The translations under genes and the position numbers were made by a program. From NCBI RefSeq assembly GCF_018860975.1, contig NZ_JAHKQI010000009.1:186001-250000 (forward strand): a stretch of 64,000 nt of DNA, given 5' to 3'. Under the pieces are notes generated by a model. That model was not told where the DNA came from, did no database searches, and worked only from the letters and a program-made list of their open reading frames with translations. Positions 3,128 to 44,320 of this stretch are shown in pieces. The DNA is from Lentibacter algarum (GTDB taxonomy: Bacteria; Pseudomonadota; Alphaproteobacteria; Rhodobacterales; Rhodobacteraceae). Position 1 is the first letter of the stretch, and each line of letters starts with the position of its first letter.

Positions 3128-3832
3128 TTAATTGACTTATGTCGGTGGGGAGGTTTGTGGACTCGGTGGATCATGCGGTTGCGAAGAGTTGGCAGACAGA
3201 CTGGATCTCGCCCAGAACACCTGATTGGTTTTGATGGATGTGGCCGCGTTTGATGGTTCGGATTGTTTCGATCCCGCTGAGGGTCGCCTTTGTCGATATC
3301 CAAGTAACCGTTTCATGGCGGCGTGGTCGCTTTCAATCCGATTGTTCCTCCATTTTCGGTCGATATGCCGGATGCTATCGAAATGTGGATCATAGCGATG
3401 ATTGATTTCGCGTATGACGCGCCGATACGCTTGCGCTTTGTCGGTGACAATTGTCACCGGGCGGTGGAGCCTGACACGCTCGATTGCTTTGTTCAGAAAG
3501 GCTTTGGCTGCTTTCGCGTCCCGCTGTGCAGTGAGGCGTAAGTCAACCATTTGACCGTTCGCATCAATTGCGCGCCAGAGGTATCACCACTTGCCGCCGA
3601 CACGGATGTAGGTCTTATCCATATGCAAATCGACGCTGGCGCGACGCAGATGCTTCTCGGTTCGCTTGGTCAGTTCAGGTCCAAATTTCTGGACCCATCG
3701 ATAAACCGTAGACCGATCTACCGATATGCCACGTTCAGACAGCAGATCGATCACATCCTGGTAGGATAACGGAAAACGCAGATAAGCCCAAAACGTAGCA
3801 CCAGCGTAGCACCGCCTGAAACGGCAACGCAA
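3116..3832 (-). mobile_element. Decayed IS6-family insertion sequence, one end missing
   Basis: The segment runs from the recognisable terminal motif (3116) to the start of transposase homology next to the rRNA operon terminator. The opposite terminal repeat is absent: after the transposase start the sequence passes directly into the terminator hairpin and the tRNA-fMet gene. The element is therefore truncated and, with a broken transposase, immobile. Its target was the sequence just downstream of the rRNA operon. Confidence 0.75.
3171..3832 (-). pseudogene. IS6-family DDE transposase, broken by a nonsense mutation and a frameshifting deletion
   Basis: Homology starts at FWAYLRFPLSYQDVIDLL and runs through the DDE core: the first Asp in LHMDKTYIRV, the second in VTDKAQAYRR, and Glu in NNRIESDHAAMKRLLGYRQ. 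Two lesions are visible. After GGKW the frame holds TGA (3584-3586), where the family has Arg (CGA), and the same frame then continues YLWRAIDANGQM. After GYRQ roughly eight codons are missing and the frame shifts, since KATLSGIETIRTIKRGH and the end LGEIQSVCQLFATA are read in another frame to the stop at 3171. The first residues before FWAYL do not look like the usual N-terminus. No functional product is expected. Confidence 0.9.
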
Positions 3833-7837: not shown

Positions 7838-9307
<1,470 letters not shown>

Positions 9308-9729
9308 AAAAGCAATTGCTTGCTTAACCTTGACGTCGAACCTCTGCACATCACCATATGACCTTACTGAAATCATATGGCGTTTTCTCTGTTTATCGTG
9401 CTTGAAGTTATCAAAGATAACTAGAAGCCGTCCAAACAGTGAAGCTGACTATCCATAATCGCTAGGGCCGAAGCCTTCGCTAGGTAGTTGATATGAAGAG
9501 GTTGATCCATCGAATGAACCAAACCGCCCACATATCTCTTCAGTTAATATCAATTTCAAAGAGCGTCGAGACCGAAGCCTCAGAGACAAAAGTGACTGGA
9601 TGCGCCCTAACTTGTTGGCGCGCCCCGCCTCAGATCCCTCAATATTCTTGCCTCCCGTCCCGCTGGAGCGTCGCTCCGTTGGTCTGTTTGGCGGCCCGTT
9701 GGAGCGTCTCTGCTCGTCCGGTAAGGGGG
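9308..9729 (-). other. rRNA operon leader with boxA-like antitermination site
   Basis: This is the transcribed leader between the proposed promoter and 16S. GCTCTTTGAAA (minus strand, 9554-9564) is close to the boxA core TGCTCTTTAACA used by Nus factors for rRNA antitermination. Several GC-rich inverted repeats (for example around GAGCGTCGCTC near 9665) and CCATATGA/TCATATGG near 9354-9380 could form leader structures. Open frames here have no family and are rejected. Confidence 0.6.
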
Positions 9730-9758
9730 GTTCTAAGGTTAGTAGCTGAGACCCGCAA
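9730..9758 (-). promoter_or_regulatory. Probable rRNA operon promoter
   Basis: On the minus strand TTGCGG (9753-9758) and TAGAAC (9730-9735) are separated by exactly 17 bases, as expected for a housekeeping-sigma promoter. It is about 420 bp upstream of 16S, a usual leader length, and is the best promoter-like match I see upstream of the operon. A run of C follows the -10, which may reflect growth-rate-sensitive initiation. Confidence 0.55.
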
Positions 9759-9827
9759 CCCCTTTTTTCACCGAATGTCATTTTTTTTACATGTTTCTGA
9801 TTTTTCCTATGTTTTGAGGGGGTTACT

Positions 9828-10142
9828 TGTTGATAATTCCGCCGATCACCGCTCCTAAGCAAGATTATTGCTGCAATGACTGGCTACAGAACCCAGATAT
9901 TGAGTTATCCACAGGCTGAGCAACAAGACTCACCGCGCAATCTGGTGAATCGCGCTCCGATTCATCAATCCGACTCGCAATTTTCCTCCGATTCACCTGA
10001 ATCGCTCCAAATGAATCACCCCAAATCACCGATTCATTTGAAAATTCATGCTCTGAAGAGAAGATTCTCACCCATTCAGCGAGTCGCTAGCCCGATTCAC
10101 AGCCAAGTCACCACCAAATCACTGCCAAATCACTGCCGATTC
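9828..10142. repeat. Gene-free region dense in GANTC sites with two DnaA-box-like sequences
   Basis: Between the rRNA promoter and msrQ no gene is visible. Twelve GANTC sites start at 9927, 9947, 9959, 9972, 9990, 9999, 10013, 10031, 10063, 10081, 10094 and 10138. GANTC is the target of the alphaproteobacterial cell-cycle methylase CcrM, and chance would give about one site in 216 bp. A perfect TTATCCACA DnaA box lies at 9905-9913 (plus strand) and a one-mismatch box, TTATCAACA, at 9828-9836 (minus strand). CCAAATCAC also recurs three times near 10021-10135. The function is unknown; a DnaA/CcrM-controlled regulatory or origin-like element is possible. Confidence 0.7.
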
Positions 10143-10761
10143 AGGCAGTCTTTGCCAGCCTGGCCCAGAATCGCGTGCCAATCAGCCCCAGAATCACGGC
10201 CATAAACACCAGCGGCTCAATCTGAATGCCTTTCACCAGCATTATGAAGTGCGCCGCACCAAGAATCGCCGCCAGATAGGTAAGCTTGTGTAGTTTTCGC
10301 CAGCGCGTTGCGCCGAGTCGGCGGATCGAAGCGTTGTTAGACGTCGCTGCCAGCGGCAGAAGCAGCGCAAATCCCACCATACCGACAGTTATATAGGGGC
10401 GCTTCACAATATCGGCCCAGATCAGCGCCACATTGCCAAGATCAAGCACCAGCCAGACCAACAAATGCGACAGTATATATATGAACGCACTCAGCCCCAG
10501 CGCGCGGCGGAACTTCAACAGGTTCAGCCCCACGTACTTGCGCAGCGGTGTCACCGCCAAAACCGCAATCAAAACCTTCAGCCCGGCCTCTCCGTAAGCA
10601 TGCTCTAGCGCCTTGATCGGCTCCGGCCCAAGCGCCCCATTTAGGCCTTGATAGAACAGCCAGAAAACATGCCCCATACACAGTATATATAGGGGCCATG
10701 CCGGAACCCGTTTTACAAGGGCATTTAGGTGGTCGGAAATCGGCTTCATTGCGGGCGTCAT
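10141..10761 (-). CDS. msrQ: MsrQ, haem-binding membrane subunit of the periplasmic methionine sulfoxide reductase
   Basis: The 206-residue protein has about six hydrophobic segments and the ferric-reductase-like fold of MsrQ (formerly YedZ). It includes LRKYVGLNLLKFRRALGLSA and a second membrane region with TRWRKLHKLTYLAAILGAAHF, in which the His residues (HKL, AHF) are likely haem ligands, with another in ILSHLLVW. MsrQ passes electrons from the quinone pool or flavin to MsrP, which repairs oxidised methionine in periplasmic proteins. msrP lies on the same strand upstream, but an opposite-strand gene separates the two. Two GANTC sites lie inside the 3' end. Confidence 0.92.
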   Translation of the reverse strand: MTPAMKPISDHLNALVKRVPAWPLYILCMGHVFWLFYQGLNGALGPEPIKALEHAYGEAGLKVLIAVLAVTPLRKYVGLNLLKFRRALGLSAFIYILSHLLVWLVLDLGNVALIWADIVKRPYITVGMVGFALLLPLAATSNNASIRRLGATRWRKLHKLTYLAAILGAAHFIMLVKGIQIEPLVFMAVILGLIGTRFWARLAKTA

Positions 10762-11356: not shown

Positions 11357-12250
11357 TCAAAAGTTGGCTTTCAAGTCCATGCCTTCATAGAGGCTGGCCA
11401 CATCCTCTCCATAGCCGTTCATCATGAGCGTCGGTTCGCGCCCGGCAAACAGCCCGCCGCCAAGTTTGCGTTCCGTCGCCTGTGACCAGCGTGGATGATC
11501 AACCTCGGGGTTCACATTGCTATAAAAGCCATATTCGCGGGCATTGGCCTTGTTCCAACTGGTCGCCGGCTCTTTGTCTGTCAGGGTTATCCGCACGATC
11601 GACTTGATGCTTTTGAAGCCATACTTCCAGGGCACAACTAGCCGCAGCGGTGCACCGTTCTGGTTGGGGAGCTCTTTGCCGTAAATCCCGGCGGCCATTA
11701 TCGTGAGCGGGTGCATCGCCTCATCAAGCCGTAAACCTTCAACATAGGGCCAATCAAGGACAGGGTATTTCACCCCTGGCATTTCGTCGGGCCTCAGCGC
11801 AGTTTCAAAAGCAACATACTTCGCCCCGCTCTGCACACCTGCGAGGGCCAACAAGTCGGCAAGCTCAAAGCCGTTCCAGGGCACAACCATGCTCCAGGCT
11901 TCGACACAGCGAAACCGGTAGATGCGCTCTTCAATGCTCACCTTCGCAAGAATGTCTTCCAAAGCATAGTCGCCCGCGTTGTCGACCATCCCGTCAATCT
12001 TCACCGACCAAGGCTTTGTCGTCAGGCGGCCTGCGTATTTCGCCGGATCTTCCTTGCCAGTGCCGAACTCGTAGTAGTTGCAGTAACCGCTGATGTCCTC
12101 AAGGCTGTTAGGCTCAAGCGCCTCGGCCCGCGCCGCAGACCCAACAAGCCCAAGCCCCGCAACACCGGCCATAATCTGTCGCCGGTTCAAAAAAACGCTC
12201 TCTTCGGTTACGTCACTATCCTTAAGAGTGTTGCGCCAGCGAAATGCCAT
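11357..12250 (-). CDS. msrP: MsrP, molybdopterin catalytic subunit of periplasmic methionine sulfoxide reductase
   Basis: The 297-residue protein opens with a twin-arginine signal ([21 protein letters not shown], around residues 22-42 with the RR near 23), as expected for a cofactor-loaded periplasmic enzyme. The sulfite-oxidase-like fold follows: [15 protein letters not shown] holds the Cys that ligates molybdenum, and [18 protein letters not shown] is the conserved cofactor-binding stretch. It reduces methionine sulfoxide in envelope proteins with electrons from MsrQ. Length matches the family. The msrQ gene lies downstream but is not adjacent. Confidence 0.95.
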
Positions 12251-14627: not shown

Positions 14628-16166
14628 ATGCCACCTCTCTCAAATGTTAACCTCAGTCAGTATTTCTATGGTAACTCACTCGTAAATCACTACAGCGACA
14701 GCCCCCAGACCAACGTGCCTTATTGGCTCAACCAACTGATCAATCACACTGAAGGCAGCTACGCCGCAAATGGCGGCTACGGCTTTCTCCAGCAGTTTGC
14801 CGATCGCCCCGAGCCAAACAATGAATGGGGCTTTGAGGGCGTTGCGGGCCTCTGGGACTCCGACGTTAACAGCTTTGAAGATGTGACTTTTGATCAAGTG
14901 ATCATAACCCCCGCCAACTTCATTCAAGACCAAACCCCCAGCACGCTCTACTATGGCAGTGGCTACAGCCCGCTTACCGCAACAATCGACATCATCGGTG
15001 ACACCCTCGCAGATCAGCCATCCGCTGACGTCTTCATCTATGAAGGTTGGTCCGATCTTGGCTTGTTCAGTGAGGCCTTCCCGCCCTCAAATGCCGTGAT
15101 GCAAAGCTATTTTTCCTTCAACCAGGCCGACTATCACGACTGGTATCTGAGCTATGTCAGCAGTTTGCAGGCAGAATTCCCCGATGCCAGCATCACGCTC
15201 ATTCCAGTCGCGCCGGTGCTTGCGGGCTTGCTCGCCGACGGTGGCCCGCTCGCTGGCCTCGCAACAACCGACGTGTTTGTTGACAGTGCCCCGCATGGCA
15301 CCGACACGCTCTATTTTCTCGCAAGCCTGATCACCTATCAGGCCACAGTCGGTGCGCCCGCACCTCTCGGGTTTCCGATTCCGGACAGCATTCACAGCCT
15401 CGTCGCCGACAACTTCGCCGAGGTCGTCGCATTTGTCGAAGCTGAGTCCGCTGTTTACTTCGGCGGTGACGATCTACCCGACAGTGGCGTCAACATCATC
15501 AACGGCACAGATAGTGACAACCGCATCACAGGCACGGAGGATGATGACAGCATCGAAGGCTACGACGGCAAAGACTCCATCAATAGCAAAGCCGGCGATG
15601 ATGTGATCGACGCTGGTAACGGTAACGATGACATCCGCAGTAGCCTCGGCGATGACAGCATTCTCGGAGGCAATGGCCACGACATAATTCGCGCAGGCGC
15701 GGGCAGCGACACTTTGCGTGGCGGTTCTGGCAACGACACCCTACGCGGCGGCGAGGGCAACGACACTTTGCGCGGTGGTGCTGGCAACGACAGCCTCAAC
15801 GGCAATGCCGGCGACGACCTCCTCATCGGCGGTGCACGCAAAGACAAGCTCAAGGGCAACGCCGGAGACGACACACTGGTCGGCGGTGCGGGCAATGACC
15901 ATCTCACAGGCGGTGCAGGTGAAGATGTGTTTGTCTTTGCCACGGGCAGCGGCAAAGATCAGATCAATGACTTTGAAGATGGCTATGATCTCATCGACCT
16001 GCGCGGATGGGGCCAAAGCTTTTCCGCTCAACTGGCCTCTGGCATGATCGACGTCACCATCGGCGCGGGGCAGAGTTACACACTCGTCAACGGCAGCGAC
16101 AGCATCACCATCAAAAACACCTCCGGCGAAGGCATAACACTTACCGAAGCCGACTTCCTCTATTAA
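14628..16166 (+). CDS. Secreted RTX calcium-binding protein with SGNH-hydrolase-like N-terminal region
   Basis: The protein has 512 residues. Residues 1-275 form a globular region beginning [15 protein letters not shown], with [10 protein letters not shown] in the middle and [18 protein letters not shown] near its end. The GNS and late D/H pattern resembles SGNH esterase blocks I and V, but this is tentative. Residues 285-435 carry about a dozen nonapeptide RTX repeats (GGxGNDxL type), followed by the usual RTX end region ([20 protein letters not shown]). Such proteins are exported without a signal peptide by type I secretion and fold on calcium outside the cell. No secretion genes are nearby. 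An in-frame TGA at 14622 limits the start to ATG 14628 or later. Confidence 0.82.
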
Positions 16167-21231: not shown

Positions 21232-22533
21232 ATGCCAACTCCAACGACAGGCACCACTGGGACCAATTTTGACAACATTATCGACATGATCTGGGCTGAC
21301 CCCGGTCTGACTGCAAGTGTGTCGCAGGAAGATATTATCGGCGGAACCGAAGCGGCCGACGCCATGAACAACATCATCGTCGAAGCCATTAACGCTGAAA
21401 ACCTGTTTGAAGACGGGTTGATCACGATCGCTGATGTCCACACGCTCAACGACTATATCCGCGCCAACTACTACGACGAATGGGTCGTTCACCACGGCAA
21501 CGATGAGGGCAACGTCGAGACCGGCTTTCACCTCGTGCAAGACGACGGAGCCACCTCCCTGCTCGAAACTGACGATCTCGTCGATTCGGTGTTTGACGGG
21601 CTCTATCACCTCGGTTTCGAAATTCGCAACGGCATTATCTACAACGAAGACGGAAACGCTAACGCCACAGTCGGCCACCTCGCGCATTGGCTCACCTGGG
21701 CAATGTCGGGCGGGCTATCTGCCTACTTTGGCACGGCAGAAAACAACTTCGTTGAAGGCTATAACCTCGACGACTTGCTCCTCCTCGGTGCCGGCGATGA
21801 CATGGGCGTTGGCGGCTTGGGCGACGACACGCTGCGCGGCGAAGGCGGAGACGATCTGCTCACAGGCAAGGGCGGAAACGACCAGATTTTTGGTGGCAAC
21901 GGTCACGACGAACTCCTCGGCGGAGAAGGCAACGACTTGCTGAAAGGGGGCGCCGGCAACGACGAATTCTGGGGCGCAAATGGCAACGACACGCTTAAGG
22001 GCGGCCGCGGAGAAGACACCATGCAAGGCGAAAACGGCAACGATGTGCTCAATGCCGGTGGCGGCGATGACTGGGTCGATGCCGGCAATGGCAACGACTA
22101 CCTCAGAGGTGGCCGTGGCAACGATGCGCTGCATGGCGTTCAGGGCAATGACACGCTTGCGGGCCAAAATGGCAACGACACGCTAGACGGCGGCATCGGG
22201 AACGACAAGCTCAGCGGTGGAAACGGCGACGACCGCCTCCTCGGCGGCGCTGGTGACGACAAACTTATTGGCGGCGCTGGCAATGACTTGCTTTCAGGCG
22301 GCGACGGCGCAGACCGCTTCATTTTCGGAGCCTCCGACAATGGCGACGACACCTTGCTCGACTTCTCTCATGCCGAAGGTGATCTGATCGTGCTGCGCAA
22401 CAACGTCGAAGCGTCTTTGTCCTTTCAGGATGGCACTGACACTTTGATCACCCTCACCCACGCGGTTACAGGAGAGATGCTGGGAACGGTTACCGTGAGT
22501 TCCGCGCTCCTCACAATGGATGACTTCGCCTGA
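21232..22533 (+). CDS. Secreted RTX calcium-binding protein with a unique N-terminal domain
   Basis: The protein has 433 residues. Residues 1-175 form an acidic, Cys-free domain with MIWADPGLTASVSQED, HTLNDYIRANYYDEWVVHHG and LFDGLYHLGFEIRNG-like stretches. I do not know a function for it, although the same head seems to occur on other Roseobacter RTX proteins. Residues 180-365 are a long run of GGxGNDxL calcium-binding nonapeptides, then the RTX terminal region (ADRFIFGASDNGDDTLLDFS). It is probably exported by type I secretion through the C-terminal signal. The RTX region is repetitive at the DNA level. A terminator follows. Confidence 0.85.
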   Translation: MPTPTTGTTGTNFDNIIDMIWADPGLTASVSQEDIIGGTEAADAMNNIIVEAINAENLFEDGLITIADVHTLNDYIRANYYDEWVVHHGNDEGNVETGFHLVQDDGATSLLETDDLVDSVFDGLYHLGFEIRNGIIYNEDGNANATVGHLAHWLTWAMSGGLSAYFGTAENNFVEGYNLDDLLLLGAGDDMGVGGLGDDTLRGEGGDDLLTGKGGNDQIFGGNGHDELLGGEGNDLLKGGAGNDEFWGANGNDTLKGGRGEDTMQGENGNDVLNAGGGDDWVDAGNGNDYLRGGRGNDALHGVQGNDTLAGQNGNDTLDGGIGNDKLSGGNGDDRLLGGAGDDKLIGGAGNDLLSGGDGADRFIFGASDNGDDTLLDFSHAEGDLIVLRNNVEASLSFQDGTDTLITLTHAVTGEMLGTVTVSSALLTMDDFA

Positions 22534-31921: not shown

Positions 31922-32779
31922 CACCGTCTCAAGTGGTGTCGCCTCAAACTCTGGTAAGAGCGCGTCAAACCTATCCGACGAAAGCCAATGCGAGGTGTCA
32001 AAGAGATAGCGCATCTCCAGGAGTTCCCGCGCCAACTCCCAAAACGGCGCGGTCAGACGGAAAAGCCACCAGGGAAACGCACGAACAATGAGTTTGCTCT
32101 GAGTCATTCGCTCGATCTCGGCCTTCAATTCATCAAGTGAAAACGCATGCCCCGGAAACGGGATGTCCTCATAGACACCCAGCGCCTCACGCTGCTCCGC
32201 CAGCAACGCCACCGCGCGCGCCCAATCGGGGAGATAGGCATAGGCGTGCTTCACTCGACGATCGCCCGTGGCGCCGATCCGCCCCTTCTTGATTTTGTTG
32301 AGGATCATAAGTGAAACAATATCGGCGTTCTTGTCTGGGTCGATAAAACTACCGGCCCGTAGGTTGATCACTTGCACCCCGCTATGTGCATAGCGAGCTT
32401 CCATGTCGGCTCTGATTTTACCTTTGCGTGACACGGGACGGTGCGGCGTCTGCTCCGACCATTCACCCGCCTCATCGCCAAAAACATAGACATTGCCGGG
32501 CAAAACAACGGTCGCGCCGCTCGCCTTAGCTGCGGCAATAACCTGTTCGGTGATCTCGGGAATGATCTCTGCCCAGTTGTGATAGTTCGGCGGGTTCAGC
32601 CCGTTGATGATCACATCACAGCCCATGGCCGCCTCGGTCATATTGCCCTCTGCACGGTCATACTTTCGGCAGATCCAGCCGCGCGCCGTGAACGCACGTA
32701 TTGCATGGGTGCCGATTTTGCCGGAAGCTCCAAGAATGAGCGCTGTCTTTTTCAGGCCCTGAGTTGGGTTTTGTGTCAT
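31853..32779 (-). CDS. NAD(P)-binding epimerase/dehydratase-like protein (extended SDR)
   Basis: The 308-residue protein begins (from ATG 32779, after AAAGGA) with KTALILGASGKIGTHAIRAF, the GxxGxxG dinucleotide site of atypical or extended short-chain dehydrogenases. It has NVYVFGDEAGEWSEQTPHRP and a YAHSGVQVINLRAGSFI region in which the catalytic Tyr/Lys spacing is not the strict YxxxK, so it may be an NmrA-like or atypical enzyme. The substrate is unknown. It is divergent from a LysR regulator 94 bp away, its likely controller. Confidence 0.8.
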   Translation of the reverse strand: MTQNPTQGLKKTALILGASGKIGTHAIRAFTARGWICRKYDRAEGNMTEAAMGCDVIINGLNPPNYHNWAEIIPEITEQVIAAAKASGATVVLPGNVYVFGDEAGEWSEQTPHRPVSRKGKIRADMEARYAHSGVQVINLRAGSFIDPDKNADIVSLMILNKIKKGRIGATGDRRVKHAYAYLPDWARAVALLAEQREALGVYEDIPFPGHAFSLDELKAEIERMTQSKLIVRAFPWWLFRLTAPFWELARELLEMRYLFDTSHWLSSDRFDALLPEFEATPLETVLRQLDVNPNQLVTAGAARESAV

Positions 32780-32872
32780 GTCTCTTTCCTTTGGTTGGTG
32801 ATGACAGCAACCTGATGCATCCATCCGCGAATAGAAATTGCGCAAGAATCTCTATGTGCTATTCAAATGTGA

Positions 32873-33769
32873 ATGGACAACATGCTCTCTTCCCTCAACT
32901 GGTCGCTCGTGCAAGCCTTCCTTGCGGTCGCTGAAACCGGATCGCTTTCCGAGGCCGCGCGCAGGCTAAAGCGCAGCCAGCCAACTCTTGGCCGTCAGAT
33001 CCAGCGGATCGAAAAAAGCCTTGGCGTCGAGCTCTTCCAGCGTCATGCCCGCGGGCTTGAGCTCACACAAACGGGTGCATTGCTGCTTGAGCCTGCACAG
33101 AACATGCGCGCTGCTGCGAAGGCACTCGAACTCGCGGCAGAAGGCCAGGACACCAGCCTTGAAGGCGCTGTCAGGATCACCGCCAGCGAGTTTGTCGCCC
33201 ATCACATCCTGCCACCGGCTCTCGCCCGACTGAGACAAGATGCCCCCGGCATCAACCTCACGCTTCTGCCCTCTAACACTACAGAAAACCTGCTGTTTCG
33301 CGAGGCCGACATCGCCGTGCGTATGTATCGCCCCGATCAGCTTGACGTCGTCACCAAAAAGATCGGCGAAATCGGCGTCGGGATATTTGCCTCCCAAAGC
33401 TATCTCGCCCGAACAAAAAAGCCGCAAGCACCCGAAGACCTACCCGAGCATGACCTTGTCGGTTACCACCAAAACCCGCTGATCATCGAGGGCATGCGCG
33501 CCGCTGGCATCCCTGCTGACGAGAGCTGGTTCACCGTCAAATGCGACGACCAAACTGTCTACTGGGAGCTGGTGCGCGCAGGTTGCGGCATAGGCTTTTC
33601 GCAAACCAGTATTGGCATCAACACGCCCGACATGGTGCAACTTTTTCCCGAGTTACCGATCCCGAGACTGCCAGTCTGGCTCGCGGTGCCCAAAGCGCTG
33701 CAACATACGCCCCGCGTTCGTCACGTTTGGAATGCACTGGAAGAGGGCCTCAAGCCGCATGTTTCTTGA
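32873..33769 (+). CDS. LysR-family regulator next to the SDR gene
   Basis: The protein has 298 residues: an N-terminal helix-turn-helix (AFLAVAETGSLSEAARRLKRSQPTLGRQI, split here as AETGSLSEAARRLKR), a linker helix, and a periplasmic-binding-like effector domain (TLLPSNTTENLLFREADIAV and GCGIGFSQTSIGIN). It is divergent from the epimerase-like gene, which it probably controls. A palindrome TTGCGCAA lies at 32838-32845 in the shared promoter region and could be part of its site. ATG 32873 or ATG 32882 could be the start. Confidence 0.9.
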   Translation: MDNMLSSLNWSLVQAFLAVAETGSLSEAARRLKRSQPTLGRQIQRIEKSLGVELFQRHARGLELTQTGALLLEPAQNMRAAAKALELAAEGQDTSLEGAVRITASEFVAHHILPPALARLRQDAPGINLTLLPSNTTENLLFREADIAVRMYRPDQLDVVTKKIGEIGVGIFASQSYLARTKKPQAPEDLPEHDLVGYHQNPLIIEGMRAAGIPADESWFTVKCDDQTVYWELVRAGCGIGFSQTSIGINTPDMVQLFPELPIPRLPVWLAVPKALQHTPRVRHVWNALEEGLKPHVS

Positions 33770-33826
33770 CGCTCCGCGCCCAAGCCGATAGCTGATAGAC
33801 AACTTATCAACTCAAGGAACACCGAC

Positions 33827-34933
33827 ATGAGCAACCCTTCGCTACTTATCCTCCCTGGTGACGGTATCGGCCCCGAAGTCATGGCCGAAGTCCGCAAGAT
33901 CGTCGATTGGTTCGGGGCCAAGCGTGACCTCGTTTTTGACGTCAGCGAAGACCTCGTCGGCGGTTCGGCCTACGACAAACACGGCACGCCCCTGCACGAC
34001 GACACGATGGAAAAAGCCCAACAAGTTGACGCTGTTTTGCTTGGCGCTGTTGGCGGTCCAAAGTATGACAACCTCGACTTTTCCGTAAAGCCCGAGCGCG
34101 GCCTTTTGCGCCTGCGCAAAGAGATGGACCTGTTCTCAAACCTGCGCCCCGCTCAATGCTTTGACGCTTTGGCCGATTTCTCATCCCTCAAGAAAGATGT
34201 CGTTGCTGGCCTTGATATCATGATCGTGCGCGAACTGACCTCCGGCATCTACTTTGGTGAGCCGCGCGGCATCATCGAGGAAGGCAACGAGCGTGTCGGC
34301 ATTAACACGCAGCGCTACACCGAAAGCGAGATCGCCCGCGTTGCCCGCTCGGCGTTTGAGCTGGCCCGCAAGCGCGGCAACAAAGTTTGCTCGATGGAAA
34401 AAGCCAACGTCATGGAGTCAGGTATCCTCTGGCGCGACGTGGTCACAGAAGTGCACCAAGCCGAGTATGCCGATGTCGAGCTCAGCCACATGTATGCCGA
34501 CGCAGGCGCGATGCAACTCTGCCGTTGGCCCAAGCAATTTGACGTGATCGTCACCGACAACCTTTTCGGCGATATCCTCTCAGACATGGCCGCGATGCTC
34601 ACGGGCAGTTTGGGCATGTTGCCCTCGGCTTCGCTCGGTGTTCCCATGGCCAATGGCCGCCCGAAGGCGCTCTATGAGCCGGTGCACGGCTCAGCGCCCG
34701 ACATCGCCGGCCAGGGCAAAGCCAACCCGATCGCATGTGTGCTCAGCTTTGCTATGGCCCTGCGCTACAGCTTTGATCAGGGCACGGAAGCCGACCGTCT
34801 TGAGCAGGCAGTTGAGAAGGTGCTGGCCGACGGCCTTCGCACCGCTGACTTGCTCGGAGAAGAAGGCGTTACACCTGTCAGCACCTCGGAAATGGGCGAC
34901 GCTATTGTCGCCGCGTTGACAGCCAGCCTCTAA
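33827..34933 (+). CDS. leuB: 3-isopropylmalate dehydrogenase
   Basis: LeuB oxidises and decarboxylates 3-isopropylmalate, the third step of leucine synthesis. The 368-residue protein shows [34 protein letters not shown], the catalytic Lys/Tyr and substrate Arg residues, and [20 protein letters not shown] with [19 protein letters not shown] near the NAD site. It starts at ATG 33827 after CAAGGAAC. It is separated from leuCD by four genes, so it must be transcribed on its own or with a different unit. Confidence 0.97.
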
Positions 34934-34950
34934 GCCGCCAACTCACCGGA

Positions 34951-34986
34951 AGAGGCCTTGCAGGATTTGCGAGGCCTCTTATCTTT
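34951..34986 (+). terminator. Terminator after leuB
   Basis: AGAGGCCT and AGGCCTCT form an 8-bp stem around a short loop, followed by TTATCTTTT. The short distance to the next ATG suggests it ends the leuB transcript. Confidence 0.75.
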
Positions 34987-34991
34987 TAAGA

Positions 34992-35567
34992 ATGGTTGAT
35001 ATCATTCACGGGCTGCCCGAAGGCATGGAAGACGCCGCCGCAGCGCTATACTGGCAGGCATTTGGCGAAAAATTCGGCAAGCTGCTAGGGCCTGATGCCC
35101 GAGCGCTTCGTTTCTTTTCAGGCAGCATCAACCGCAAAGCGATCCTTGCCGCTGTCGAGGGCGACACTTTGCTCGGCATTGCGGCTTTTCAGGTTGATAA
35201 CAAAGGGTTTTCAACTGCTGGAGCGGGCGAAGTATTCAAGCATTACGGCCTCGGTGCGCTTTGGCGACTGCCGTTGTTGGCCTTGCTTGAACGCGAGCCG
35301 CCAGAGGGCACTTTGCAAATGGACGGCATCTGCGTGGGCGACGCCGCGCGCGGTAAGGGTGTCGGCACTGCGTTGCTTGAGGCCTTGTTTGCACGGGCAA
35401 AATCTGATGGTTTTAGCCACATCACCCTTGATGTCATCGACACGAATCCGCGTGCAAAAGCCCTTTACGAGAGGCTCGGTTTTGAGGCGGTAAGTCAGGA
35501 GAGCACGTCATTCATGCGCTTGTTCCTCGGTTTTTCAAAGGCAACTCGCATGTCGAAACGGGCATAA
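34992..35567 (+). CDS. GNAT-family N-acetyltransferase
   Basis: The 191-residue protein has the acetyl-CoA binding signature VGDAARGKGVGTALLEALF (Arg/Gln-x-x-Gly-x-Gly type) and the motif NPRAKALYERLGFEAVS near residues 155-170. The N-terminal substrate domain is not informative, so the acceptor is unknown. The ATG is only 6 bp past the leuB terminator and its ribosome site is weak. No partner gene is nearby. Beyond the stop begins a region of decayed oxidoreductase genes on the minus strand. Confidence 0.88.
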   Translation: MVDIIHGLPEGMEDAAAALYWQAFGEKFGKLLGPDARALRFFSGSINRKAILAAVEGDTLLGIAAFQVDNKGFSTAGAGEVFKHYGLGALWRLPLLALLEREPPEGTLQMDGICVGDAARGKGVGTALLEALFARAKSDGFSHITLDVIDTNPRAKALYERLGFEAVSQESTSFMRLFLGFSKATRMSKRA

Positions 35568-35624
35568 TTATGCCACGTGGTCGGTCTCGACTTGGTGTTT
35601 GGTGACGGGTATTGGCCCTGCAGT

Positions 35625-35881
35625 TCACATGCAGGACCTGTGTAGTAGCAAAAGGTCCACATAGTCTGTTCCCAGTCGTTCCAAAGACGCATCGGCGGCA
35701 GCGGTGAAGGCTTCTGGCGCGAAGTGTTCCGGCAGAATTTTGGTGGTGAGGAACATCTCATCGCGGCGGACATCGGCGCGGCGCAAACCTTCGCCGACCT
35801 GCGTTTCATTGTCATAGGCTTGTGCGGAGTCAATATGGCGGAACCCTTCAGACAGAGCCGCGGCCACCATTGTGTTTTCTT
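35625..35881 (-). pseudogene. Aldo/keto reductase fragment
   Basis: The translation MVAAALSEGFRHIDSAQAYDNE, here kept as its pieces MVAAALSEG and FRHIDSAQAYDNE, together with GTDYVDLLLLH matches the middle of aldo/keto reductases. These include the catalytic Asp and Tyr (D and Y of SAQAYDNE). The N-terminal barrel start and everything after LLLLH are missing. It has no own start region and lies in the debris of a neighbouring gene, so it is a remnant and not a functional enzyme. Confidence 0.75.
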
Positions 35882-36223
35882 ATGCAAATTCAGGCATGAC
35901 GTGCGCAGCCAACTCGGCCAGATCATCTTCGATTTCGCGCTGCGATTGACGCAAGTTAAGGGCGATGAGGGCAACGGGTCGAACACCTGCCCTGCATCCC
36001 CGAAGCTGGGATCGTGGACTGGCACGTCCCGCAGCCAGACGGCGTCGAGGCCGAGGTTTTCGACGAGCTTCACGCCCTTGGCAGGGTTTGAGATGTCAGG
36101 CGCGTCAAAGGGGCGACCTTCGGTACGGGCACGGCGTTGTCCGGCCTCAGACCAGTCGCGGTCCAGTGGCAATTCAATGCCAAAACTCATGCGGTCTTTG
36201 TAAATCAGATTGAAGGCCGACAT
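35882..36223 (-). pseudogene. Luciferase-like (LLM) oxidoreductase, internally deleted
   Basis: The start is intact: AGGAGG, ATG 36223, then MSAFNLIYKDRMSFGIELPL and GLDAVWLRDVPVHDPSFGD, which match the N-terminus of LLM-class flavin enzymes. After GQVFDP the frame changes and the text continues as VALIALNLRQSQREIEDDLA to HVMPEFA and a stop, which looks like the family's C-terminus. The bulk of the protein is therefore deleted with a frameshift at the scar near 35977. No active enzyme is possible. Confidence 0.75.
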
Positions 36224-36285
36224 GATACCAACCTCCTGTTCAGTGTTTCGCCCCGCCGCATCAAAGACGCTGCGGGGCGCTGAGG

Positions 36286-37467
36286 TTATTCGGCAGCGAC
36301 GGCTTGGGGGGCGGCGCCGTTCAGGCGGCCGGACAAGCGCACCAGAACGATCCCGACAACCACCACACCAGCAGCAATGTAGGGGGCAGCCGCAAGGCCG
36401 ATGCCTTCGACCACAAGCCCACCGGCCCATGCGCCGCCGGCAATGCCGAGGTTGAACGCACCGATGTTCAGGCCAGAGGCCACATCAACCGCACCGGGCG
36501 AGACTTCGCGTGCGATTTGCACGACGTAAGACTGCAACGGCGGCACGTTGGCGAAGGCAAAACCACCCCAGAAGGCCGCAACCGCGATGGCCGCAATCGG
36601 GCTGGTCAGGCACGCGCCCAGTGCGACCAGTGATATCGCAAGACCCGCAAAGATCACCGTCAGGGAGGCCACTGCGCCGATACGGTCAGCCAGTTTGCCG
36701 CCGGCTATGTTGCCCACTGCGACAGATGCACCGTAAAGCAAAAGCACCAAGCTAACCGCGCCCGCAGACAGGCCCGTGACTTCGTTCAGCATCGGCGCAA
36801 GGAAGGTGAAGGCGATGAAGTTGCCGCCATAGCCGACAGCCGTGATCAGGTAGACCAGCAGAAGACGCGGCGAAGTCAGCACCTGTAATTGGGCTTTGAT
36901 CCCCGCCGAGGCGACTTTGGTCAGGTTCGCGGGCACCAAGATGGCAGAAGCAATGAAACCGATGACGCCCAGAGCGACAACGCCAAGGAAGGTCGACTGC
37001 CAGCCAAAGTTTTGGCCGATGAACGTTCCCAAAGGCACACCCGTCACCAGCGCGACAGTCAGACCGAGGAACACCAGCGCAATAGCCGAGCTTTCCTTTT
37101 CCGGTTCGACAAGATCGGTCGCGATGGTCGAGGCGATGGCAAAGAACACGCCGTGCGCGAGACCGGTGATAAAGCGTGCGGCGACGAGGCTGCCATAATC
37201 CGGCGCAAAGGCGGCATAGCCATTGCCGAGGATGAACAGCCCCAGCAAGAGCAGCAACAGCGTTTTGCGCGGCACGCGATCCGCCATTGCCGTCAGCACC
37301 GGCGCACCGATGGTCACGCCAAGCGCATAGAGGCTGACCAGCATGCCAGCAGACGGAATAGAAACGCCAAGATCGGCGGCGATGGTGGGAAGCAAGCCGA
37401 CGATAACGAACTCGGTCGTTCCGACGGCGAAAGCGCTGATGGTCAGCGCCCAAAGGGCAAGGGGCAT
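36286..37467 (-). CDS. MFS-family efflux transporter
   Basis: This 393-residue, twelve-helix transporter begins MPLALWALTISAFAVGTTEF. TEFVIVGLLPTIAADLGVS and GLAHGVFFAIASTIATDLV place it in the AraJ/Cmr (DHA1) drug-export group. It starts at ATG 37467 with GGAGAA eight bases before; an upstream extension in the same frame has no family homology. It is divergent from a LysR regulator with a clear operator between, so it is probably induced by that regulator's ligand. Confidence 0.9.
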   Translation of the reverse strand: MPLALWALTISAFAVGTTEFVIVGLLPTIAADLGVSIPSAGMLVSLYALGVTIGAPVLTAMADRVPRKTLLLLLLGLFILGNGYAAFAPDYGSLVAARFITGLAHGVFFAIASTIATDLVEPEKESSAIALVFLGLTVALVTGVPLGTFIGQNFGWQSTFLGVVALGVIGFIASAILVPANLTKVASAGIKAQLQVLTSPRLLLVYLITAVGYGGNFIAFTFLAPMLNEVTGLSAGAVSLVLLLYGASVAVGNIAGGKLADRIGAVASLTVIFAGLAISLVALGACLTSPIAAIAVAAFWGGFAFANVPPLQSYVVQIAREVSPGAVDVASGLNIGAFNLGIAGGAWAGGLVVEGIGLAAAPYIAAGVVVVGIVLVRLSGRLNGAAPQAVAAE

Positions 37468-37516
37468 CGGTGTTCTCCAATAAATTTGATGTCGACGCCG
37501 TATATGCCAGCCGCTA

Positions 37517-37533
37517 TCTATTGCGAGAATAGA
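37517..37533. promoter_or_regulatory. LysR-type operator between the MFS gene and its divergent regulator
   Basis: TCTATT-GCGAG-AATAGA is a perfect inverted repeat with a T-N11-A core, the usual LysR binding site form, and sits midway in the 111-bp divergent promoter. Confidence 0.65.
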
Positions 37534-37578
37534 CAATTTTGGAATGGATCATTGCAAAAATTGCACGAATTGTTGCGC

Positions 37579-38448
37579 ATGGGGGATTTGGCCGCTTTTG
37601 TCGGGATCGTCGACGATGGCGGCTTTGCTGAATCTGCTCGGCGCAGGGGGGTGTCTGCCTCTACGCTCAGCCGGTCGGTCACGCGGCTGGAAGAGCAGTT
37701 GAAGGTCACGTTGCTAAGGCGCACGACGCGGTCTATCGAAATCACCCCTGAAGGTGCTGCTGTTCTGGCCGAGGCGCGCGAGATTTTGGACCGCAGCGAG
37801 GCCCTGCAAGAGATCGCAACAAGCGGACAAGCCCCCGCGGGGCCACTGCGTGTAAACGCACCGGTTCCTTACGTTCTGCATGTTCTCGCCCCGCGTTTGG
37901 CTGAGTTTCACGCAAAGTACCCTGACATCAAGTTGTCGATCGATATGACCGACACGCTGGTCGACTTGATTGGTAGCCATGCGGACGTTGCCATTCGGCT
38001 GGGCCAGCTGCCTGATAGCGACATGTTGCACCGTCCCTTGGGGCGTACAGCTTGGAAATTGGTGGCTGCGCCGGAGTATCTTGACCGCAACGGCTGGCCA
38101 GAAATACCCGCCGACCTCGCACAGCTGGAGCAAGTACGGTTCGCGGCACCCGATCATATCAACACATTGCGCTTTGCTGGTCTGTCCTCTCCCGTGACAG
38201 TGCCCACCGCCATCACCGCAGGCAACGGAGAGGCCGTGCGCCAGATGGTCTTGGGCGGTCTGGGCATCGCGCGGTTTTCCGATTTCATGATCGCTGACGA
38301 TATCCAAGCCGGGCGTTTGATTGAGCTGTTTCCCGGCCAACTCGACGCCGCCCCTTTGAATATCTCAGCGCTCTACCTTACCCGCGTCTCGGGCCTGCGG
38401 CGACTGGGGGTTTTTCTTGACTGGGTGGGGAAAATTGGTGGAGGCTAA
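37579..38448 (+). CDS. LysR-family regulator of the adjacent MFS exporter
   Basis: I take ATG 37579 (MGDLAAFVGIVDDG; 289 residues); the frame is open far upstream through the antisense MFS gene, and that extension is not protein-like. The helix-turn-helix is ESARRRGVSASTLSRSVTRL, and the effector domain includes LRVNAPVPYVLHVLAPRLAEF and GLGIARFSDFMIADDI. It resembles the CrgA/AaeR-like branch. The inverted repeat 37517-37533 is its likely operator, with autoregulation and control of the MFS gene expected. Confidence 0.9.
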   Translation: MGDLAAFVGIVDDGGFAESARRRGVSASTLSRSVTRLEEQLKVTLLRRTTRSIEITPEGAAVLAEAREILDRSEALQEIATSGQAPAGPLRVNAPVPYVLHVLAPRLAEFHAKYPDIKLSIDMTDTLVDLIGSHADVAIRLGQLPDSDMLHRPLGRTAWKLVAAPEYLDRNGWPEIPADLAQLEQVRFAAPDHINTLRFAGLSSPVTVPTAITAGNGEAVRQMVLGGLGIARFSDFMIADDIQAGRLIELFPGQLDAAPLNISALYLTRVSGLRRLGVFLDWVGKIGGG

Positions 38449-38666
38449 GTCATGCGAGCGCCTTTGATCATGTATAGCGCTTCCGTGCAAAGCGTGGCCT
38501 CAAAAGGTAACTCCGCGTTAGCCCTATACAGACATTTATTTGTATGTCCGCTGCCTGGAAGTTGCACCGCAGCACCACGACCTAATGCGGTTTTTGTGCA
38601 TTCACCTTGATTGCCCAATCACACGGCCCTGTTCCTTGACGCTATATCCATCAATAGCATCACGAC

Positions 38667-39065
38667 CTAAGCGCAGCCGGGAATTCGGGCGATCACCTTA
38701 ATTTCAAAGTCAAACCCGGCGAGCCAGTTCACACCTACGGCTGTCCAGTTAGGGTAAGGCTTTTCAGGAAAAGCGCGATCCTTCGCCTGCATGATGTCAC
38801 CGAACTGGGCTTCGGGATCTGTATGAAAACTTGTGACATCGATGATGTCGCCGAGGGAGCAGTCTGCGGCGTGCAACACCTCGGTCAAGTTATCGAAGGC
38901 GCGCTGAACTTGCGTCGCGAAATCGGGCTCCGGTGTTCCGTCTTCGCGGCTCCCCACCTGGCCCGAAACGAACAACAAGTCGCCTGAGCGGATGGCCGCA
39001 GAATATCGGTTGGTGTCATACAGGTCTTGGCGGCCTGACGGGAATACGGGGTCTGGTTTGGTCAT
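38667..39065 (-). CDS. RidA-family protein (YjgF/YER057c)
   Basis: The 132-residue protein starts at ATG 39065 (MTKPDPVFPSGRQDLYDT). It has the RidA core SGDLLFVSGQVGS, QVQRAFDNLTEVLHAADCS and DIIDVTSFHTD, and ends with IKVIARIPG. RidA proteins deaminate reactive enamine or imine intermediates, although many paralogues have other uses. The Arg-(N)-(C)-V catalytic signature is not exact here, so enzymatic activity is uncertain. It follows the DUF6220-like gene on the same strand with a short gap, probably in one operon. Confidence 0.85.
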   Translation of the reverse strand: MTKPDPVFPSGRQDLYDTNRYSAAIRSGDLLFVSGQVGSREDGTPEPDFATQVQRAFDNLTEVLHAADCSLGDIIDVTSFHTDPEAQFGDIMQAKDRAFPEKPYPNWTAVGVNWLAGFDFEIKVIARIPGCA

Positions 39066-39128
39066 AGGGTGTCCTTTGGGCTGAGAAATTTGCGATGTGC
39101 AGGGCGGTAATCGCACAGGTATTGCGGG

Positions 39129-39527
39129 TTAGGAGTGTAAGGCACGGCGGCGTTCGGTCTTGGCCAGCAACACGAGGGCAGCGATCAGCAGCAGGCTTGC
39201 ATTGAAAGGGTGCAGCGCAAGCATGGTCGCCCCGCCTGTGGCCAGCGCAATCTGAACCCCGTAAAGCGCCAGAGCGGCCAAAGCCCACCATGCGAACCCG
39301 CGCAGATAACCATTGGCGCAGGCCATAATGGCCATGACAACGACCGGCACACCGGCCAAGCCGCCGACCATGCCGTGGATGGACCACGGCAGGCCCGCGA
39401 AGAGAGACTGTCCGGCGAGAAAGAACTGACCCGCGAGGGCGACGGGGAGCAATCGGGCTGACCACACAAACAGGGCGGGCGTGCCGCGCTCGAGAGCGAC
39501 GAGGGTATCGTGCGTGCTTGCGGTCAT
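39129..39527 (-). CDS. Small four-helix membrane protein, DUF6220-like
   Basis: The 132-residue protein has four hydrophobic segments (for example LLPVALAGQFFLAGQSLF and GLAGVPVVVMAIMACANGYL, plus two at the C-terminus ending with LIAALVLLAK). The pattern QFFLAG..F is what I associate with DUF6220. Its function is not known. Its start is just 3 bp after the stop of the oxidoreductase gene upstream, so the three minus-strand genes 40139-38667 form an operon. Confidence 0.6.
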   Translation of the reverse strand: MTASTHDTLVALERGTPALFVWSARLLPVALAGQFFLAGQSLFAGLPWSIHGMVGGLAGVPVVVMAIMACANGYLRGFAWWALAALALYGVQIALATGGATMLALHPFNASLLLIAALVLLAKTERRRALHS

Positions 39528-39530
39528 GGC

Positions 39531-40139
39531 TCAGACCTCTGCCGCTTTGGCAACCCGTGGGGTCGCGATGAACGCTTGAAGCGCACGGGTGTAGCTCTGG
39601 GCTGCGGCTGCCAATGCGGCCTCATCGAGCTTGTCCGCTGAAAACGTCAGATGTGGCGCATGCCACGGCAGGCCGCACCGATGCGCCATCGCTTTCAACG
39701 GGGTGAAAATTTCGTCGACCGAATAGTGATTTTGACCTGACCGCGTATAGGCTTCGGCTACGTTGCCAAGCGTCGCGGCCACCATCAACGGCGTCCCAGC
39801 AAGGCGCGCGCCCTCTTCTTGTGGAAAGACATAGTACATCCGCGTCAGCACGGCGTCTTGCCAAGCCTTCAAAATCGACGGCGTCGCATACCATTGCACA
39901 GGAAATTGTAGCACAATGCGGTCGGCTCCAAGCAACAATTGGGCATCGGCCTCGGCATCCGTGAACATGTCGATGTGCCCATCGGGATAGCGTGCCTGCA
40001 CATCGATCGCGGTCACGCCTTCAATGCCTTGCGCCGCACGAAACAAAGCCGCATTGGCGACAGATTTTTCAATATCGCGGTGGAACATAAGTAAGAGTGT
40101 CTTGGTCTTGGTCTTGGTCTTGGTCTTGGTCTTGGTCAT
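39531..40139 (-). CDS. NAD(P)H-dependent flavin oxidoreductase (MdaB/KefF-like) with Thr-Lys repeat head
   Basis: The 202-residue flavodoxin-fold protein has LLLMFHRDIEKSVANAALF at the start of the core, and VLQFPVQWYATPSILKAWQDAV, the signature of NAD(P)H quinone reductases and the Kef ancillary proteins. It ends with GLPWHAPHLTFSADKLDEA. The first 14 residues are Met followed by six Thr-Lys pairs and Thr, from a hexanucleotide repeat, and are not part of the family. Reduction of quinones or nitro compounds is likely. It is divergent from a LysR regulator and heads a three-gene operon with the DUF6220-like and RidA genes. Confidence 0.85.
   Translation of the reverse strand: MTKTKTKTKTKTKTLLLMFHRDIEKSVANAALFRAAQGIEGVTAIDVQARYPDGHIDMFTDAEADAQLLLGADRIVLQFPVQWYATPSILKAWQDAVLTRMYYVFPQEEGARLAGTPLMVAATLGNVAEAYTRSGQNHYSVDEIFTPLKAMAHRCGLPWHAPHLTFSADKLDEAALAAAAQSYTRALQAFIATPRVAKAAEV
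40101..40136 (-). repeat. Hexanucleotide repeat encoding (Thr-Lys)6
   Basis: Six units of ACCAAG on the minus strand follow the start codon of the NAD(P)H oxidoreductase gene. Unit number changes keep the frame. Confidence 0.95.
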
Positions 40140-40205
40140 AGTCTCAGTCCTTATGGGTTCGTTTGACCAAAACGTAGATCCGCCAAAGAAATAATTCCAA
40201 CTGAT

Positions 40206-40224
40206 ATAATATATAGTGTATTAT
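40206..40224. promoter_or_regulatory. Possible LysR operator in the oxidoreductase/LysR promoter
   Basis: ATAAT-N9-ATTAT is an inverted repeat in the divergent promoter, close to the regulator start. AT-rich palindromes arise by chance, so confidence is limited. Confidence 0.35.
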
Positions 40225-40231
40225 TGATTTC

Positions 40232-41128
40232 ATGAATTTAAGATCGATCGACTTGAACCTGCTCGTGGTGCTGGATGCGCTGTTGGACGAGGCCCATGTG
40301 AGCCGTGCGGCGCATCGGCTGAACCTCTCCCAACCCGCGGTTTCGAACGCGCTGCAAAGGTGTCGCGATCTGTTTGATGACCCGTTGCTCGAGCGCGGAC
40401 GTGGCGCAATGCGGCGGACCGCGCGGGCGGAAGCGCTGCGGGGGTCTCTTAAATCCATTCTAAGCGAGCTGAATGACCTTGTTGACCCGCCGGAAACCCC
40501 GTTGCACACCTTGCGCCAAACCGTGCGGCTGACGATGGCAGACGACCCGACATTTCTGATCGCGGGGCCGCTTCTAACGGCATTACAGTCCACCGCCCCG
40601 GGGGTGACCCCAATTTTCCAACCTTGGAACGGCAGCACGGCAGCGGCGCGTGATTTGCTGAGTGGCGAAACAGACATTGCCGTTTCGGTCTTTGGGCACC
40701 AGATCGAGGGCATCGAACAGATCACACTTTTTGAAGAGACATATGTTGTTGCGATGCGGCGCGATCATCCTGCTGCACAGGCGTTTGATCTGGATGCGTG
40801 GCTGGCATTCCCGCATGTCCTGATGTCCGGAACAGGAGAGGCGCAATCACCTTTGGATGCTCAACTGGCGGCGATAGGGCGATCGCGTCGTGTTGGTGCG
40901 GTTGTGCCCTCCTTCCAACTTGTCCCGTCGCTGTTGGCGCACACAGATCATATCGCGATGTTGCCCAAACACGGGTTCGATCAAAACGCGCATCCGCTTT
41001 TGACCAGCTTTGATCCGCCGATTGAGGTCAGCGGCTTCCCCTTGCATCTGGCCAGCCACACGCGCCAATCGAACAATCGCGGGGTCCAGCATGTGATTGC
41101 CGCGATCAGAGAGATTTTTCTCGTTTGA
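40232..41128 (+). CDS. LysR-family regulator (NodD-like) divergent from the oxidoreductase operon
   Basis: The protein has 298 residues. The N-terminus MNLRSIDLNLLVVLDALLDE, helix-turn-helix HVSRAAHRLNLSQPAVSNAL and recognition helix RDLFDDPLLERGRGAM are typical of the NodD/NahR/LinR branch, which usually senses aromatic compounds. The effector domain begins TVRLTMADDPTFLIAGPLL. It probably activates the divergent oxidoreductase/DUF6220/RidA operon, which would fit an aromatic- or quinone-stress response, but the inducer is unknown. Confidence 0.9.
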   Translation: MNLRSIDLNLLVVLDALLDEAHVSRAAHRLNLSQPAVSNALQRCRDLFDDPLLERGRGAMRRTARAEALRGSLKSILSELNDLVDPPETPLHTLRQTVRLTMADDPTFLIAGPLLTALQSTAPGVTPIFQPWNGSTAAARDLLSGETDIAVSVFGHQIEGIEQITLFEETYVVAMRRDHPAAQAFDLDAWLAFPHVLMSGTGEAQSPLDAQLAAIGRSRRVGAVVPSFQLVPSLLAHTDHIAMLPKHGFDQNAHPLLTSFDPPIEVSGFPLHLASHTRQSNNRGVQHVIAAIREIFLV

Positions 41129-41290
41129 AACCAAGGTCGGTCTGAATGTCCATAACGGTCGTTCTCTTGCCCTGCTACGCCCCGAGGGCGTTCGAGCTCC
41201 AAAATTGCAAGTTAGCTGTCGATAAGTGGCAAATCGACGTCAACAAGTGTCACCTTAGGTGTCATTTCACACTCGCATGCGTCGTGAACT

Positions 41291-43552: not shown

Positions 43553-43607
43553 AGACTGGCTCCTAGACGGGCGGGTTGGCAAGGCTTTAAGTGATACATG
43601 AGAAGCG

Positions 43608-43635
43608 GGTCAATCTTCAATGGTCAATCTTCAAT
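43608..43635. repeat. Direct repeat of 14 bp in the nrdJ upstream region
   Basis: GGTCAATCTTCAAT occurs twice end to end, then GGT again, 56-83 bp upstream of the nrdJ start. It is probably a local duplication; regulatory meaning is unknown. Confidence 0.9.
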
Positions 43636-43683
43636 GGTAGAATCATGCTGCGAGTCATATTGTACCACATATAGAGGACATTG

Positions 43684-44115: not shown

Positions 44116-44172
44116 CCGAGCTGCGAACGCTATGGTTAACGCGCATTTCCGGCTAGAAAACCGCTGCACAAC

Positions 44173-44208: not shown

Positions 44209-44320
44209 CGTGCTGACAGTTTTGACGCGCGCCCTGCAGTGCAAACTGGTTAACAGAGCTCGAAAAGTGTTAATGTTGCGAATGACTCGCAATTCTGCCG
44301 CGCCACCCCATATAGAGCGT

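Follow-up and report, generated by a model that had tools for sequence, protein, structure and literature searches.

Upstream of the rRNA (rrn) promoter of Lentibacter algarum there is an ordered array of GANTC sites, and an element of this kind is, on good support, common to many of its relatives among the Rhodobacteraceae. The array is restricted to GANTC, its sites are spaced by about one helical turn and locked in phase to the rrn promoter, and a DnaA box is conserved at its promoter-proximal edge. It is very probably a functional part of rrn promoter control, and the layout hints at an undescribed switch between DNA replication and ribosome production. How cells keep ribosome production in step with chromosome replication has long been asked, and few cis-acting links are available; the element joins, at an rRNA promoter, sites for GANTC methylation, a mark sensitive to replication, with a DnaA box, the latter in about half of the named loci listed (the second locus set described below).

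The GANTC array and its surroundings

The analysed stretch of DNA, 64 kb long and referred to below as the window, contains the following features, with coordinates counted from its first base; distances in bp are counted from the end of the -10 hexamer.

7846..9307, minus strand: 16S rRNA gene, the first gene of the operon and the sole 16S match in the draft assembly
9730..9735, minus strand: rrn -10 hexamer TAGAAC, separated by a 17-bp spacer from the -35 hexamer, identified by comparison with relatives
9753..9758, minus strand: rrn -35 hexamer TTGCGG, identified by comparison with relatives
9759..9849, minus strand: AT-rich stretch with many A-tracts, lying between the promoter and the DnaA box and AT-rich in the named loci as well
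9828..9836, plus strand: one-mismatch DnaA-like box, opposite in orientation to the conserved box
9905..9913, minus strand: DnaA box TGTGGATAA (read in the rrn direction), 184 bp before the -10 end and inside the zone conserved in relatives
9927..10142, no strand assigned: the array, made up of 12 exact GANTC sites at a distance of 202-413 bp from the -10 end, in a zone also enriched in relatives
10105..10131, no strand assigned: three decayed units, AAGTC at 10105 and AAATC at 10116 and 10127, found by direct reading
10168..10319, no strand assigned: four further GANTC sites (10168, 10191, 10263 and 10315) in the 3' end of msrQ, found by motif count
10141..10761, minus strand: msrQ-like gene for a membrane haem subunit, the upstream neighbour, with a Ferric_reduct domain match
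11357-12250: msrP-like gene with an Oxidored_molyb domain match

The cluster thus sits between the 3' end of the msrQ-like gene and the rrn promoter; the names msrQ and msrP are those we presume from the domains and the gene order. An earlier note on this DNA had reported 12 GANTC sites within 216 bp beside an rRNA operon transcribed away from them, and both statements agree with direct reading: the sites start at 9927 to 10138 and end with base 10142, and the 16S gene (7846-9307) is on the minus strand. The cluster is indeed beyond chance, and the estimate of about one site made there from equal base frequencies understates the excess, because the whole window is GANTC-poor (71 sites in 64 kb versus 238, standard deviation 13, expected from dinucleotide shuffles), which renders the cluster more exceptional. 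Avoidance of GANTC has already been described for alphaproteobacteria (PMC3973325, in its available text). A density no higher than in other intergenic regions of the genome was named in the same note among the results that would refute its reading. The sample taken from the genome shows the opposite for the cluster: 20 stretches that cover 362 kb of the 3.65 Mb contain 363 GANTC sites, or 1.0 per kb, and the densest 216 bp among them hold at most 4, against 12 here. With 0.22 sites per 216 bp, the Poisson probability of 12 is about 2e-17 by hand arithmetic. In the 800 kb sampled from two relatives, the highest count is 5.

The three decayed units, which do not appear in the earlier note, lead from the GATTC site at 10094 to the one at 10138 in steps of exactly 11 bp. 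A search around the array for a longer repeat unit yielded only short, scattered direct and inverted repeats. An encoded peptide was considered and rejected, the open reading frames at 9876-10205 (plus), 9449-9862 (minus) and 9493-9858 (plus) being without a Pfam match at E 0.001.

Elsewhere in the same genome, 4-5 GANTC sites occur shortly before a dnaA domain match on contig C8 (L119, 7727-7926; L001, 817-1037) and are among the densest spots of the 362-kb sample, with 4 per 216 bp. CcrM and dnaA are linked, and dense GANTC near dnaA fits this link. The window also carries a fragment with an IS240-type DDE transposase domain (3137-3550, minus strand), close to the 3' end of its rRNA operon.

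Conservation, spacing and phase among the Rhodobacteraceae

Two sets of rrn loci, assigned to the Rhodobacteraceae on the strength of their record titles, were compared. For the family set, 149 genomes were drawn, of which 75 gave a match to the query, and the rrn leader served as the anchor; 74 oriented loci, after removal of four duplicates (L068, L071, L074 and L080) and two loci with no upstream sequence (L018 and L035), left 68 loci from 44 genomes, including the genome of the window and two others of its genus, the loci fetched being the analyst's choice among the places listed. The named set was collected with a leader pattern blind to GANTC and comprised at least 118 loci, of which 16 with less than 500 bp upstream were removed to leave 102. 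The two sets overlap in three loci of identical sequence.

Conserved GANTC density upstream of rrn in relatives, proposed in the earlier note as a check, is found in both sets. Over the 68 family loci, counted from an anchor that corresponds to position 9800 of the window, density increases from about 1 per kb outside to 20 per kb at -250 to -201 and 31 per kb at -200 to -151, and is down to 1.5 per kb by -50. The 102 named loci among the matches listed show a peak of 31 per kb that is confined to a short interval ahead of the rrn promoter, with about 1 per kb alongside. A copy with at least three zone sites is present in 38 of the 44 family genomes, and one with at least five in 25; none has zero in every copy seen. 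Among the named loci listed, 99 of 102 have a zone site, 80 have at least three and 45 at least five; the three without one are the loci of Sagittula marina and Nioella ostreopsis and one place in a record that bears the name Ruegeria pomeroyi. With one listed locus per genus, 32 of 42 named genera have at least three sites. The loci share descent, so these counts are not independent. The 29 rrn loci of other alphaproteobacterial families, taken from the best 16S matches, show neither a peak nor a cluster of more than 4 sites.

The number of sites varies between rrn copies of one genome: three copies have 8, 6 and 3 (G076) and two have 5 and 6 (G149), and in other genomes the copies have 9 and 2 (G052), 0 and 4 (G046) or 3 and 0 (G051). 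Genomes in which a single copy was seen average 6.3 sites (26 genomes), compared with 2.9 per copy where several were seen (18 genomes), a difference that contig breaks and the choice of copies may bias. The array is independent of its msrQ neighbour. Of the 68 family loci, 32 have an msrQ match no more than about 1.5 kb upstream, and 52 of the 102 named loci among the matches listed have one anywhere in the sequence retrieved; at least three GANTC sites are present in 25 of the 32 family loci with the match and in 20 of the 36 without it.

GANTC is the only strongly enriched member of the 256 patterns of the form XYNZW. The enrichment of the zone over the flank is 23-fold in the family set (next pattern, 2.3) and 13.8-fold in the named loci among the matches listed (next pattern, 2.4). 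The middle base is free (59 A, 54 C, 85 G and 87 T), and one-mismatch forms of GANTC are near background, at 0.6-1.4-fold. This combination would be expected of a methylase motif with, in addition, a weak flank preference of its reader. Exact outer letters around a free middle base imply that GANTC itself matters, and thus probably CcrM methylation. The flanks are symmetric, with a pyrimidine before and a purine after: YGANTCR accounts for 46% of the sites in the named loci listed and 56% in the family set, versus 23% of the background; otherwise they carry little information. The published GcrA motif YGAKTCK (PMC7987155, in its accessible part) is found in 35-39% of array sites versus 23% of background sites, whereas its tightest published form, TGATTCG, hardly occurs (1 of 474 and 0 of 285 array sites versus 25 of 1168 background sites), so that the match of the array to the GcrA motif is incomplete. 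The flank preference has the symmetric form Y..R and does not coincide exactly with the GcrA motif.

Distances between pairs of sites peak at 11-12, 22-23, 31-33, 41-44 and 51-54 bp, and the period of the spacing is 10.5-10.75 bp (z of 11 against random placement). The comb is, furthermore, phase-locked to the promoter. At 10.7 bp, 381 sites of the named loci among the matches listed give R of 0.449, and the maximum in 400 shifts that preserve the spacing within each locus is 0.186. R is 0.441 (n=364) without the three loci shared between the sets and 0.452 with one listed locus per genus (42 genera), a value that none of 1000 shifts reaches; these statistics ignore kinship, and shared descent can preserve positions. 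The peaks of the comb are near -161, -171, -182, -192, -203, -214, -225, -246 and -257 from the -10 end. In relatives, the sites, up to 14 of them phased, lie mostly 160-340 bp before the -10 hexamer, compared with 202-413 bp in the window. The phase lock indicates that a reader of the array would sit on one face of the DNA and act together with the rRNA promoter. Of the permuted pentamers used as controls, AGNCT gives R of 0.474 (n=73), but 40 of its occurrences overlap GANTC and the remaining 33 give 0.178. Another, TGNAC, shows a promoter-locked R of 0.458, similar to that of GANTC, with only 27 sites and zero overlap with GANTC.

The promoter hexamers themselves are assigned by the comparison, TAGAAC occupying the -10 place in 48 of the 102 named loci among the matches listed; a generic promoter scan of the window does not have TTGCGG at 9753-9758 among its predictions. 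The AT fraction in the listed named loci is 0.54-0.66 over -120 to -31, and the corresponding stretch of the window (9759..9849) is possibly an UP element or a bend.

The perfect DnaA box noted earlier at 9905-9913 is present (TTATCCACA) and is the only one in the window. One perfect box per window is ordinary, with 0.30 expected, but the conserved position is not. Perfect TGTGGATAA in the rrn direction is found in 21 of the 102 named loci among the matches listed, always at -208 to -175, with one box on the opposite strand; equal base frequencies predict 0.33 for the two strands together. If one mismatch is allowed, 48 of these listed loci contain 61 boxes, all in the sense orientation and all at -225 to -170; 19 of the 61 are the variant TGTGGGTAA, and the other 54 loci have no such box. 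Permuted 9-mers occur in a mean of 0.8 loci and at most 11. The family set has a perfect box in 16 of 68 loci and one within one mismatch in 28, on either strand. The boxes form a comb with R of 0.71-0.74 at 10.7-11.5 bp (n=61, no null computed), whose period is poorly resolved because the comb spans only 55 bp. The one-mismatch box reported at 9828-9836 does exist in the sequence, but none of the relatives has an antisense box at that place, and an antisense box with at most one mismatch is present in 3 of the 68 family loci, that of the window included, and in 1 of the 102 named loci listed. This box is probably due to chance.

A proposed methylation-dependent control of rrn and its alternatives

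The fallback reading of the earlier note, a promoter region that senses CcrM and DnaA, fits best, given that in relatives the sites keep their density, their spacing and their phase relative to the rrn promoter. From the sequence comparison we infer methylation of the sites, GcrA as their reader, binding of DnaA and an effect on transcription; whether the array is read in a methylation-dependent manner, mainly by GcrA, is in our estimate an even call. The mechanism could work as follows. CcrM would mark adenines in GANTC sites lined up about one helical turn apart, a spacing that puts the methyl marks on the same side of the DNA and in a fixed rotation to the rrn promoter. A methylation-dependent binder, most likely GcrA, which also acts through RNA polymerase, may occupy the row, while DnaA may bind the box at its promoter-proximal edge and the AT-rich stretch may bend and bring the assembly to RNA polymerase. 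Passage of the replication fork would leave all sites hemimethylated together until CcrM is made again, so that the output of the rRNA promoter would be reset by replication of the locus. For the direction of control, our guess is that full methylation would activate. The layout suggests that methylation sites may act as an ordered array with a rotational register rather than as single switches.

Several published observations are compatible with such a scheme: according to the available portions of the respective papers, GcrA binding is strengthened by m6A-GANTC (PMC3667746), GcrA works with sigma 70 in RNA polymerase (PMC7987155), and 98.35% and 99.51% of GANTC sites are methylated in two Rhodobacter strains (PMC6256690). 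A GcrA domain was detected in all 30 genomes searched, that of the window included; the profile also matched Sulfolobus among the controls. A search for the RAMA domain found it in open frames of 371-398 amino acids in 10 of 10 genomes, again including that of the window; this domain we take to be part of CcrM. Both domains also occur in genomes whose arrays are weak or almost missing (G107, G086 and G123), and since they are found in every genome tested, their presence does not predict the array and the correlation is uninformative. Further points against the scheme are the published ctrAP1 footprint, which is at the promoter itself, the scarcity of TGATTCG, the three listed named loci with an empty zone, the unequal copies within single genomes, the 54 listed named loci that lack a DnaA box and the comb of TGNAC.

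The most serious competitor, although itself rather unlikely, is an rRNA upstream activating sequence read by an uncharacterised Fis-like factor whose core happens to be GANTC, with methylation incidental or blocking. In Escherichia coli, the rrn promoters have Fis sites upstream, in register with RNA polymerase. The promoter phase lock is what such an activator region would be expected to show, and sites phased in the promoter register are present here for GANTC. The Y..R flanks, moreover, extend the palindrome past the methylase motif, and MucR can occlude GANTC from CcrM (PMC5172544, in the part available). The free middle base and the one-mismatch forms near background, however, are unusual for an ordinary factor and typical of a methylase motif.

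Another alternative, which we consider improbable, is a physical element in which phased GANTC marks alter the bending or stiffness of the DNA and thereby the geometry of the promoter, with no dedicated reader. It is compatible with the period of 10.5-10.75 bp and with the AT-rich, A-tract-rich stretch that adjoins the array, but a bend would tolerate other base steps, in contrast to the strict motif with its free middle base and unenriched one-mismatch forms. 

The methylation-dependent reading extends to a broader proposal: a family-wide epigenetic control of rrn, in which a one-face m6A array and DnaA, phase-locked to the promoter, couple rRNA synthesis to replication of its own locus. We advance this tentatively, as somewhat short of an even chance. 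If true, it would be, as far as we know, the first case of rRNA transcription under an ordered DNA-methylation array; many members of the family are cultured and carry prospects for a direct test of the coupling.

Origin and reservoir readings, and related systems

The suggestion that the region is a reservoir or titration site for DnaA, like datA, has become weak, and we regard it as very unlikely. It would account for a DnaA box at a conserved place, but the boxes in the listed named loci, all in one orientation and within 55 bp, amount mostly to one per locus, instead of the several of a datA-type site, and the GANTC comb is left unexplained.

Still less credible is the reading that the array is the chromosomal replication origin or part of one, an idea the earlier note had raised and which is rejected on the positions of rsmG, hemE and dnaA together with sampled GC skew. 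The joint occurrence of GANTC sites, a DnaA box and rRNA genes favours it, as do hemE at about 21 kb from the array in one complete relative (G141) and the rise of GANTC numbers around ori in four orders including Rhodobacterales (PMC9836097, in its available text). GC skew, a check named in that note, was sampled in two complete relatives, and in both the switch is away from the arrays, the switch and rsmG being 0.2-0.45 Mb off. In G149, the skew turns positive at about 2.99-3.28 Mb and rsmG is at 3.03 Mb, whereas the two arrays map to 2.59 and 2.73 Mb; elsewhere the profile changes sign again. In G141, where the skew is weak, it is lastingly positive from about 0.05-0.08 Mb; the array, at 0.29 Mb of 4.32 Mb and thus about 0.2 Mb away, is flanked by positive skew to its left and right; rsmG, at 4.21 Mb, is 0.40 Mb from the array round the circle. 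Furthermore, arrays are not confined to a single rrn copy in several genomes; in the genome of the window, rsmG, hemE and dnaA are on contigs other than that of the array; and there is a single perfect DnaA box in the window and no cluster of boxes. The array thus has neither the placement of oriC, one per chromosome at the GC-skew switch, nor its several clustered DnaA boxes. The arrays may nevertheless lie close to the origin, and the hemimethylated period would then be longer.

Equally remote is an array with no function, maintained by shared descent or relaxed intergenic composition: the loci are related and, in alphaproteobacteria, intergenic DNA is somewhat richer in GANTC (PMC3973325, same available text), but BLAST matches of relatives span the promoter side and msrQ and skip the array, except for one 47-bp match that touches its edge, yet density, period and phase are kept there, other regions of these loci are near background, and none of the 256 patterns besides GANTC is comparably enriched.

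Among known systems, the GcrA/CcrM promoters of Caulobacter (ctrAP1, mipZ and tipF) are similar in the presence of GANTC, here conserved beyond chance upstream of the promoter, in the CcrM-type and GcrA domains of the genome, as judged by the GcrA family and the RAMA domain, and in an expected link of output to methylation state. The published GcrA footprint on ctrAP1, however, is at -35 to -10 (PMC3667746, in its available text), whereas the array consists of up to 14 phased sites far upstream, at rRNA promoters and often with a DnaA box. The sites of the window, at 202-413 bp, do not touch the -35 and -10 elements, so that the array is not classified with these promoters, even though it resembles an upstream activating region of an rRNA promoter in its mode of action and appears to draw on components of the GcrA/CcrM system.

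The Fis-bound activating sequences of E. coli rrn likewise consist of several upstream sites in helical register with RNA polymerase; here, the sites are a methylation motif, are more numerous and further upstream, and their conserved letters are not a known Fis consensus. The origin of Vibrio chromosome 2, bound by RctB and marked by Dam, contains iterons about one helical turn apart, each with GATC, and thus shares with the array units at this spacing that carry a methylation motif; the array differs in that it is not an origin and in that mainly the GANTC pentamer, rather than a longer iteron, is conserved. Within the same family, upstream regulatory regions of the Rhodobacter sphaeroides rrn operons were reportedly described by Dryden and Kaplan in 1993; we know of no mention of GANTC phasing in that work. 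Judged by titles and the beginnings of abstracts, none of the open-licence PMC papers that the searches listed describes the array. Two papers treat the distribution of GANTC in Rhodobacterales (PMC9836097 and PMC8116508), and the word rRNA does not occur in their available text.

Some additional features of these genomes are outside the array. In G141, two 20-kb stretches at 4.10-4.15 Mb (L155 and L300) contain 40 and 48 GANTC sites, about twice the usual number, with no tight cluster. In the window, GC skew shifts from about -0.1 to about 0 within 32001-48000, away from the array, and two proteins encoded on the plus strand (14628-16166 and 21232-22533) contain many glycine-rich repeats that, judged by eye, are of the calcium-binding type.
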